From: Candidatus Altimarinota bacterium
GTDB taxonomy: Bacteria > Patescibacteriota > Gracilibacteria > UBA4473
Assembly: GCA_021735575.1 (NCBI GenBank)
Contig: JAIPGU010000002.1
Coordinates: 1-39,616, forward strand
Length of the DNA: 39,616 nt
Direction: 5' to 3'
In this document: one piece after another, positions 10,309 through 33,579 of the stretch
Layout of the letters: the number at the start of each line of letters is the position of its first letter
Position numbering within the stretch: position 1 is the first letter of the stretch
The notes under the pieces: generated by a model
The model's database searches: none
What the model was told of the DNA's origin: nothing
The model's input: only the letters and a program-made list of their open reading frames with translations
Made by a program: the position numbers and the translations under genes

Positions 10309-10431
10309 AGAAACCCTCAAAAATAGCAAAAAACGAGGCGACAAGCCGAACTTCCAATGAGACGTACGGATTTTGTACGACGAATGAAGTTTGGCGCAGT
10401 CAACGATGTCTTTTGCATTTTTCAGGGTTTC
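10309..10431. repeat. Palindromic element with conserved stem-loop core (copy 1)
   Basis: The inverted ends (GAAACCCTCAAAAAT and ATTTTTCAGGGTTTC) enclose ACGAGGCGACAA and a long hairpin: GCCGAACTTC (10345-10354) pairs with GAAGTTTGGC (10386-10395), with CGTAC/GTACG stacked inside. The core is about 75% identical to 33325-33413, and the stem differs there by paired changes. It fills the gap between holA and the prepilin peptidase gene. Confidence 0.7.
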
Positions 10432-31572: not shown

Positions 31573-32640
31573 CTATTGAACACTTTTTTTGTTCATCTGT
31601 TTCAGCATTTCCGCCATCTCCAAGACGCATTCTGTCGTTTCCTTCATTCCCAGACATGCATCTGTAATGGAAACACCATGTTCCAAATCCTTCACGCACT
31701 GGAAATTGCTCATATCCTGTTTCCCCGTTTCCAAAAAACTTTCCATCATAAACCCCTTCACGGTTTGCCCAACTTCTTTGTCCTGAGCCAGCGATTCGAT
31801 TACTTCTCGAATTACTTGTGGCTGACGATGAGGATTTTTTTTGCCCGTTTCATCGATCGAGTTTTCATGACTCGCATCCACGATAATAGAACTATTCAAT
31901 ATACCGGCTTCTTTCATGAGACGAGTCGCTTTTTGGAGTTTGTAGAGGCTGTAATTAGGCTTCGAATCCCCTCCCCGTAAAATGTAGTGAGCAAAAGGAT
32001 TGCCGGAAGTCAGAATTTGCTTCCCATGAAGCGCGCAAACATGTGGATGTTGCGCTGCAACAATAGAATTGACACCAATTTGTATATTCCCAGAAGTTGG
32101 GTTCTTGAAGCCAACGGGATGCGGAATCATAGACGCGAAGATTCTGTGTTCCTGATCCTCAGTCGATCGAGCACCAATAGCGATCCAAGAAAGCAAATCC
32201 ACAAAGTAACTGTCATTATGGGTAAAAAGCGCCTCATCTGCTAATGGTAAACCAATCTCCAACACTTTAATCATCATCTCCCGACAGTAAAAAATCCCCG
32301 CTTCAATATCAGGCGGAGAAAAAGGATCAACCTGATTCAAAGGACCAAGCCATCCAAGTCGTGTACGAGGCTTCTGAATGTAGGAACGAAGAATTACTTT
32401 GATCTGATCTGAAACCTTATCCGCCAAAGGTTTTAACTTTTCAGCATACTCGACTACCGCTTCAGATGGCCATGCCGAACACGGTCCTACGATCAGAATT
32501 TTTCGCGGGTCTTTGCCTTTCAGGATGTCACAGATTTCAGCGCGCGAACGCCCAACTTCATGGGACAAGTCGTCCGCCAGAGGAAGTCTTTGAAGCACGA
32601 GATCAGATTTCGGAAGCGTTTTTTGGATGATGTAGCCCAT
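31573..32640 (-). CDS. 3-deoxy-7-phosphoheptulonate (DAHP) synthase, AroFGH type
   Basis: This enzyme joins phosphoenolpyruvate and erythrose 4-phosphate, the first step of the shikimate pathway. The class I motifs are present: KILIVGPCSAWPSEAVVEYA near residue 48, YIQKPRTRLGWLGPLNQ (usual form RVYFEKPRTxxGWKGL), SWIAIGARSTEDQEHR, and GFKNPTSGNIQIG. Metal and substrate residues lie in ALHGKQ, LRGGDSKPNY, and IIVDASHENS. The 355-residue length matches E. coli AroG, AroF and AroH. It follows tyrA by 39 nt, so expression is probably set by the attenuator upstream of tyrA. Confidence 0.95.
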   Translation of the reverse strand: MGYIIQKTLPKSDLVLQRLPLADDLSHEVGRSRAEICDILKGKDPRKILIVGPCSAWPSEAVVEYAEKLKPLADKVSDQIKVILRSYIQKPRTRLGWLGPLNQVDPFSPPDIEAGIFYCREMMIKVLEIGLPLADEALFTHNDSYFVDLLSWIAIGARSTEDQEHRIFASMIPHPVGFKNPTSGNIQIGVNSIVAAQHPHVCALHGKQILTSGNPFAHYILRGGDSKPNYSLYKLQKATRLMKEAGILNSSIIVDASHENSIDETGKKNPHRQPQVIREVIESLAQDKEVGQTVKGFMMESFLETGKQDMSNFQCVKDLEHGVSITDACLGMKETTECVLEMAEMLKQMNKKSVQ

Positions 32641-32679: not shown

Positions 32680-33276
32680 TTAGAAGAAGGGATTGGCCTT
32701 AATTGAGGATAAAGTCCCGGGAGAAATATCTCCCATCTGTTGTACAAATTGTCGCAAACGAAGAAAACTTGCGGGAATACAATTATCCGGTACCCAATCA
32801 GCTTGCGCCACAAGGGGTTTCAACATTTCTGCCGCCAACACCCCCGCCAAGTGTGTTTTTGCCATAATACGATCATGCACTTCTCCATCGATAGCCCGTC
32901 CGTTCGGCAGATGCGTCACTATTTCACAAGACAACTGTCGGAAAAGATCCAGAATGATCTTTGTGTCCACGCAAGCCTGAGTCAAAAGAGCCGTACGACC
33001 CTCCTCAGGGCTTTTCGGACCAAAAAGCGGATGAATACTCGTCACCTTATCCGAATGACACGCACAAACTTCATGGGTGTCTTTCTGAACGGAACAAATA
33101 TTCACCAAATGTTTCCCCGCATTTTGAGTCGCTACTTCATCGTATGCCGAAAATGGAACCGCTAAAAACACGATGTCCGCATCTTCCGAAAAATGCACAT
33201 AAGGCGCCAAGAGCTCTTGGAGAAATGTTCCAAAAAGTCCTTGACCGACGATGTGAATACAAATGTTATTTTTCAT
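32680..33276 (-). CDS. tyrA: Short prephenate dehydrogenase-like protein (TyrA)
   Basis: TyrA oxidatively decarboxylates prephenate (or arogenate) on the way to tyrosine. The N-terminal dinucleotide motif is CIHIVGQGLFGTFLQELL. VNICSVQKDTHEVC and VTSIHPLFGPKSPEE match the family's S-x-K and HPMFGP segments. AIDGEVHDRIMAKTHLAGVLAAEML matches the D-H-D...H region of the prephenate site. At 198 residues it is much shorter than the usual roughly 280; most of the C-terminal helical domain is missing. It lies first in an operon with DAHP synthase and behind the aromatic-leader attenuator. Confidence 0.8.
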   Translation of the reverse strand: MKNNICIHIVGQGLFGTFLQELLAPYVHFSEDADIVFLAVPFSAYDEVATQNAGKHLVNICSVQKDTHEVCACHSDKVTSIHPLFGPKSPEEGRTALLTQACVDTKIILDLFRQLSCEIVTHLPNGRAIDGEVHDRIMAKTHLAGVLAAEMLKPLVAQADWVPDNCIPASFLRLRQFVQQMGDISPGTLSSIKANPFF

Positions 33277-33299: not shown

Positions 33300-33426
33300 A
33301 TAAATTTTTCAAAAATGTTATCAGACGAGGCGACAAGCCAAAACTCAAATGAGTCGTACTGCATTTTGTACGACGAATGAGTTTTGGCGAAGTCAACGAA
33401 GTACGATGCATTTTGGAGAAATTTAT
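33300..33426. repeat. Palindromic element with conserved stem-loop core (copy 2)
   Basis: The inverted ends (ATAAATTTTTCAAAAATG and CATTTTGGAGAAATTTAT) enclose ACGAGGCGACAA and a long hairpin. GCCAAAACTCA (33337-33347) pairs with TGAGTTTTGGC (33378-33388), and TCGTAC/GTACGA stacks inside. It is homologous to 10309-10431. It sits between the attenuator's terminator and the tyrA start, so any readthrough transcript must pass it. Confidence 0.7.
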
Positions 33427-33451
33427 AAAAAAATCCGGCTGTGAGCCGGAT
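33427..33451 (-). terminator. Attenuator terminator upstream of tyrA
   Basis: On the minus strand ATCCGGCT, loop CAC, and AGCCGGAT form a perfect 8-bp stem followed by a run of T. It lies 30 nt past the leader peptide stop. Its first arm can instead pair with AGCCGGG inside the leader coding sequence (33495-33501), which would remove the terminator. Confidence 0.85.
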
Positions 33452-33481
33452 AGAAGTTCTTAAAGTGAATTTTTTTTCTCT

Positions 33482-33544
33482 TTACGAACGCTCTCCCGGC
33501 TGGACCGAGTAAAAGTAGCTCCAAAAGTAGAAGAAAGAATTCAT
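33482..33544 (-). CDS. Aromatic-rich leader peptide of the tyrA/DAHP synthase operon
   Basis: The ORF reads MNSFFYFWSYFYSVQPGERS. Residues 4-12 contain four Phe, three Tyr and one Trp; eight of nine are aromatic. It has its own promoter, with the ATG 7 nt after the -10 box, and is followed by an intrinsic terminator. In the leader, CTCGG (33505-33509) can pair with CCGGGAG (33493-33499). AGCCGGG can alternatively pair with the first arm of the terminator. A ribosome stalled on the Phe/Tyr/Trp codons would cover the first segment and free the second for antitermination. This matches the classical trp/phe attenuation design; amino acid regulation is inferred. Confidence 0.85.
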   Translation of the reverse strand: MNSFFYFWSYFYSVQPGERS

Positions 33545-33551
33545 CGGAAGA

Positions 33552-33579
33552 ATTCTAGGGAGGACGGAAAAAATGTCAA
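33552..33579 (-). promoter_or_regulatory. Promoter of the tyrA attenuator leader
   Basis: TTGACA (33574-33579), a 16-nt spacer and TAGAAT (33552-33557) on the minus strand lie 7 nt before the leader peptide ATG. The gap 33277-33720 holds this promoter, the leader, the terminator, a palindromic element and the prfA promoter. Confidence 0.85.

Follow-up and report, generated by a model that had tools for sequence, protein, structure and literature searches.

A predicted leaderless attenuator with an aromatic leader peptide upstream of tyrA and DAHP synthase in a Patescibacteria genome, and leaders of the same design before valS, thrS and argG

The genes for a tyrA-like protein and DAHP synthase in a Candidatus Altimarinota bacterium (Patescibacteriota) are very probably controlled by a ribosome-mediated transcription attenuator, a conclusion that rests on comparative evidence only, without transcript, ribosome or expression data. 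The locus lies in a stretch of 39,616 nt (the window) from a draft genome, G000, that is 71% complete. Its features are as follows.

33552..33579, minus strand: promoter, TTGACA (33579-33574), 16-nt spacer, TAGAAT (33557-33552), from the sequence
33544-33482, minus strand: leader peptide ORF of 20 codons, MNSFFYFWSYFYSVQPGERS-stop, from the sequence
33491..33501, minus strand: segment 2 (AGCCGGGAGAG), the 5′ strand of the antiterminator core, in the final third of the leader ORF, from pairing and folding prediction
33444..33501, minus strand: predicted antiterminator hairpin, leader nt 44-101, spanning the leader stop codon and reaching the first arm of the terminator, from folding and a permutation test
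33433..33451, minus strand: intrinsic terminator ATCCGGCT-CAC-AGCCGGAT, a perfect 8-bp hairpin, from the sequence (-12.1 kcal/mol)
33426..33432, minus strand: terminator T tract (7 T), from the sequence
32680..33276, minus strand: tyrA, short prephenate dehydrogenase-like protein of 198 aa, first gene under putative control, from sub-threshold profiles
31573..32640, minus strand: DAHP synthase (aroF/G/H type), second gene under putative control (TIGR00034, 282.6 bits, cut-off 173.2)

The minus-strand promoter, the 20-codon ORF and the 8-bp hairpin with its T run ahead of two aromatic-pathway genes had been listed in the initial annotation, and all are present in the sequence. Residues 4-12 of the leader hold eight aromatic codons, and the terminator lies between the leader ORF and the first gene (tyrA), as the attenuator class requires. 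The promoter is the best of 12 scored in the 30-37 kb stretch, with 11 of 12 consensus matches, and 7 nt separate its -10 element from the leader ATG (33544-33542, minus strand). In the absence of 5′-end data, the transcription start is inferred from this motif and predicted at G33545/A33544; termination would then yield a short RNA of about 115-120 nt with its 3′ end in the T tract (33426..33432).

Promoters alone (12, versus 11.2 in shuffles) and terminators alone (9, versus 8.0) are not more frequent than expected by chance, so the significance of the locus lies in the combination of elements and in its conservation. These counts would suit a reading in which an aromatic-rich short ORF arose by chance between a promoter and a terminator of the ordinary sort and has no part in regulating the downstream genes. 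The combination of aromatic ORF and terminator upstream of DAHP synthase, however, occurs in 19 of 71 real regions and in none of 940 dinucleotide shuffles (strict level), and when the same test is run across the 39.6-kb window the aromatic locus is the only site to pass. Codons, geometry and pairing are conserved across diverged leaders, and matched Val, Thr and Arg leaders stand before valS, thrS and argG (see below). A chance frame is already contradicted by these comparative sequence data and can be given almost no credence.

It could also be argued that the leader senses uncharged tRNA in the manner of a T-box, or binds a metabolite or regulatory protein, with the ORF incidental, as T-boxes are common regulators of aminoacyl-tRNA synthetase genes in Firmicutes and, in Actinobacteria, of ileS (general knowledge; PMC1262725). 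An Rfam search of the window returned only two tRNAs and no T-box or other family, so the T-box covariance model was not matched. With a leader RNA of only about 118 nt, half of it coding, and with codon runs that follow the identity of the downstream gene, this possibility is very improbable.

The first downstream gene was assigned from matches to NF005032 (E 2.6e-11) and PDH_N (E 2.6e-4), both under the curated cut-off; its protein had no match among PDB sequences, and a homologue in the sister genome G001 is 55% identical. The short tyrA is confined to the genus of the window, so a search for related loci with it as the query yielded none, and DAHP synthase, present in 80 of 353 genomes of the class, served as the query instead. 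Between the terminator and tyrA lies an imperfect palindrome (window 33325-33399), with copies in the genome at window 10333-10406 (87%), L227:10575-10637 (84%) and L271:6008-6044 (92%).

The initial annotation had proposed aligning the regions upstream of these genes in related genomes. Aromatic codons and competing stems were found there, with conserved pairing. Within the window's own family (f1), a diverged aromatic leader and a terminator precede DAHP synthase or its operon in 10 of the 14 genomes bearing the gene, for example MSHIFLFFWSFYFPTVSRVSA, MQNLFFYFWNFYFAPSRVRVRS, MKSFSFDFFYFWFRASEQV and MQRYFYGFYFWTGSRR. The gene is present without a leader in G006, G012 and G018, and the leader of G014 is doubtful, showing no 2:3 pairing. 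Aromatic leaders before DAHP synthase also occur in families f5, f15, f22 and f14; those of f22 and f14 appear when TGA is read as glycine, some containing in-frame TGA (L152-L184), and their length depends on the genetic code assumed. The sister genome G001 carries two leaders in series (L002/L018, G001:C35), before tyrA and then before a chorismate mutase-DAHP synthase gene. The tyrA leader, MNTLQVSYYYKNGLTAGVF (also given as MNTLQVSYYYKNG), has tyrosine as its clustered aromatic residue and follows TTGACA-16-TATGAT, while the second leader (NFFYFFF) is of the F/Y type. In G249 (L143), an extra Phe-run leader (MFVQALTFGFFAFPFSAGQEPVCLN) lies about 575 nt upstream of DAHP synthase, before a 102-aa ORF, and is followed by the usual DAHP synthase leader.

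Apart from the run of aromatic codons and the segment that pairs, leader sequences vary freely. This bears on whether the leader peptide additionally acts in trans as a small protein, for which peTrpL of Sinorhizobium meliloti is a precedent (PMC7298713); a peptide free to diverge in this way argues against such a role, which is very unlikely here.

With the upstream part of the leader masked, the antiterminator, a long and imperfect hairpin, has a predicted minimum free energy of -23.3 kcal/mol versus -12.1 for the terminator. Three mutually exclusive stems had previously been drawn at this locus. Two of them, the terminator and the pairing between the leader and the first terminator arm, are solid, so that two strong and exclusive hairpins are observed, the second extending further than originally drawn (nt 44-101). 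The third, stem 1:2, pairs CTCGG with CCGGGAG on paper, but its strength does not exceed that of shuffled sequences (z -0.5).

Pairing was compared across 36 leaders by locating the terminator and then the stretch of the leader that pairs most strongly with the terminator's first arm, with energies taken from duplex prediction. The mean for a leader's own segment 2:3 duplex is -14.9 kcal/mol, versus -8.7 (sd 0.5) with the arms of other leaders, and none of 20,000 permutations attained the mean of the own pairs. The preference is seen within family f1 alone (-14.1 versus -10.3) and holds in f5 and in the recoded families; it does not hold in f15, represented by only three similar sequences. The predicted antiterminator (2:3), competing with the terminator, is thus kept by compensating changes across the leaders.

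The positions of these elements are also shared. In most leaders the last aromatic codon falls at nt 28-55, segment 2 starts at about nt 43-57 and the terminator starts at nt 82-115, the exceptions being G014, G155_2 and G338. Segment 2 mostly occupies about nt 43-66, where it closely follows the final aromatic codon and either precedes the stop codon or spans it. At the locus of the window, the last aromatic codon is at nt 34, segment 2 at about nt 43-55 and the stop codon at nt 61-63; in this predicted geometry segment 2 would be covered by a ribosome that has reached the stop codon, and not by a stalled one. In most leaders of family f5 the end of segment 2 lies at some distance 5′ of the stop codon, and a terminating ribosome would therefore cover it only partly.

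In the attenuator proposed here, RNA polymerase would start at or beside the AUG of the 20-codon leader ORF, and a ribosome would bind directly at the 5′ end of the RNA, with no Shine-Dalgarno sequence to guide it. Given ample charged Phe-, Tyr- and Trp-tRNA, this ribosome would reach the stop codon and cover segment 2 (leader nt 44-54), leaving segment 3 free, so that the terminator forms and the transcript ends after about 118 nt. When charged aromatic tRNAs are short, it would stall in FFYFWSYFY with segment 2 exposed, and the long antiterminator (nt 44-101) would form first, allowing read-through into tyrA and DAHP synthase; a stall at any aromatic codon, Trp included, would keep segment 2 free. 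That translation is coupled to transcription, and that the switch responds to tRNA charging, are inferences. An earlier inference that stalling at Phe, Tyr and Trp codons relieves termination gains comparative support from the leaders of relatives, the geometry and the 2:3 permutation test.

RNA folded up to the first terminator arm, with no ribosome, is predicted to adopt the antiterminator (-27.3), and read-through may therefore be the default. Together with the weak 1:2 stem, this leaves a three-stem scheme of the trp type only partly supported. A two-state attenuator without the 1:2 stem, in which read-through is the default and termination occurs only once a ribosome completes the leader, fits both observations; it is a sub-variant of the attenuator explanation rather than exclusive of it, and differs from the trp type when the leader is untranslated. 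In several relatives, however, the 1:2 hairpin is good (z -3.5 in G094, -3.8 in G198 and -3.5 in G215; mean -1.7 over the 36 leaders), which counts against this variant, and it is favoured only slightly.

Translation of the leader from a leaderless mRNA had been considered unusual for an attenuator, a view that does not hold up in this genome. In 11 of 12 f1 leaders and in all eight f5 leaders, the leader ATG lies 7-12 nt beyond the end of a near-consensus promoter. Across G000, a Shine-Dalgarno-like 4-mer precedes just 33 of 463 ORFs of at least 200 aa, amounting to no Shine-Dalgarno signal, while two peaks stand upstream of ATG codons (first-ATG guesses at the starts), one of -10-like hexamers at -15 to -12 and one of TTGAC at -37 to -35, a pattern that suggests many leaderless genes. 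The 3′ end of the G000 16S rRNA reads ATCACCGCCTT, with CCGCC in place of the usual CCTCC anti-Shine-Dalgarno core (L387, G000:C27:15437-16918). Of the 11 readable f1 genomes (L387, L396-L404), nine carry an altered core (CCGCC, TCGCC or CTGCC), and CCTCC is kept in G011, G017 and most other families. Given the absence of Shine-Dalgarno motifs, the promoter-element peaks before starts and the altered anti-Shine-Dalgarno, leaderless leaders would be the expected norm here.

The genomes of S. meliloti and Corynebacterium glutamicum retain Shine-Dalgarno initiation for many genes. Leaderless attenuators are nevertheless known in both: the rnTrpL transcript of S. meliloti starts at the leader AUG (PMC7298713), and the transcript start of C. 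glutamicum ilvBNC lies one nucleotide from the leader AUG (PMC11857589). The present leader would resemble trpL and ilvBNC in a start at or within one nucleotide of the AUG, here inferred from the promoter, and in lacking a ribosome-binding site; it differs in belonging to another phylum and in that the anti-Shine-Dalgarno itself is altered in most of family f1.

An amino-acid-blind scan for the same architecture covered about 0.80 Mb of G000 (stretches plus the window). Four of its six strongest matches are the aromatic locus and the leaders of argG, valS and thrS, listed here.

G000:C36:10861-10949 (L255:10861-10949; also L194): valS leader MKNASRPSFSQVVVVVD (Val5) with terminator GACTCGC..GCGAGTT, a leaderless attenuator as judged by sequence
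L222 about 2647, G000:C3, minus strand: thrS leader (V)STIITTTTTNTD (Thr5), GTG-started, with terminator
L221:1472, G000:C1: argG leader MNFKVLFTNLRRRP (Arg3), with terminator

The other two matches were set aside: one reads the valS leader in an overlapping frame, and the other is a tRNA-like stretch (L268), judged by eye to be a tRNA gene. Neither reversed nor Markov controls of the scan gave a match with comparable duplex energy, and relaxing it in G000 (promoter score 8) added only noise. An Ile/Leu/Val-rich short ORF with a leaderless promoter and terminator (L245:2115-2207) was dropped as an unproven attenuator because no coherent large gene lies downstream.

The identities of valS, thrS and argG were confirmed by TIGR families. 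Val-run leaders precede valS, and Thr-run leaders thrS, in nine further family genomes each, and Arg-run leaders precede argG in G001, G004, G009 and G012, behind near-leaderless promoters. In an amino-acid-blind tally over the family, the leader codons are observed to match the regulated gene (aromatic locus with Phe/Tyr/Trp 9/14, valS with Val 9/18, thrS with Thr 8/14, argG with Arg 4/12), and off-diagonal matches are few. The few genomes examined from other families showed no valS, thrS or argG leaders. Judged from these leaders, the putative aromatic attenuator is not isolated; it is a member of a regulon with valS, thrS and argG, built to the same design. It is a reasonable, if not secure, inference that a family in which the anti-Shine-Dalgarno core is largely lost senses amino acids in general through a regulon of leaderless, ribosome-mediated attenuators (at aromatic synthesis, valS, thrS and argG) that by default allow read-through when the leader is untranslated.

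In Escherichia coli, the pheA and pheST leaders and the trp attenuator combine a short leader ORF rich in codons for the product with an antiterminator and a terminator that share an arm; proteobacterial attenuators of the Phe type govern biosynthesis as well as an aminoacyl-tRNA synthetase, and their leaders are Shine-Dalgarno-led. The system in G000 is alike in its product-codon leader ORF, its shared arm and its putative control of both biosynthesis and aminoacyl-tRNA synthetases, and unlike in the predicted position of the leader at the 5′ end, in the weakness of stem 1:2 and in the mixing of Phe, Tyr and Trp codons. Attenuators of trpS and leuS have been predicted in Streptomyces (PMC1262725), likewise from comparative genomics and with codon-matched leaders before aminoacyl-tRNA synthetase genes; the amino acids differ here, and valS, thrS, argG and an aromatic operon occur in one genome with one promoter and leader geometry. 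DAHP synthase loci of the Legionella type (L054, L073, L076, L082, L083, L113) have their own aromatic leader (..CFFYFSFFSPELGGR) and a strong terminator. This arrangement before DAHP synthase is similar, although the Legionella leader has a longer N-terminal part and its stop lies about 180 nt before the gene.

Ribosome-mediated attenuation is thus a known kind of regulation, and it is the Patescibacteria case for which no published precedent was found. The initial annotation knew of no described example in this group, and the open-licence literature likewise yielded no case of leader-peptide attenuation in Patescibacteria/CPR, nor any paper on attenuation leaders of thrS plus valS. If the reading is correct, this would be, as far as the literature found allows, the first described amino-acid attenuation regulon in Patescibacteria, and a streamlined genome would have retained fine control over costly biosynthesis and aminoacyl-tRNA synthetases. 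Each leader would then spell out what its downstream gene responds to, aiding annotation in a poorly characterised group, and the tie to a degenerate anti-Shine-Dalgarno would make translation start in these bacteria a directly testable question.
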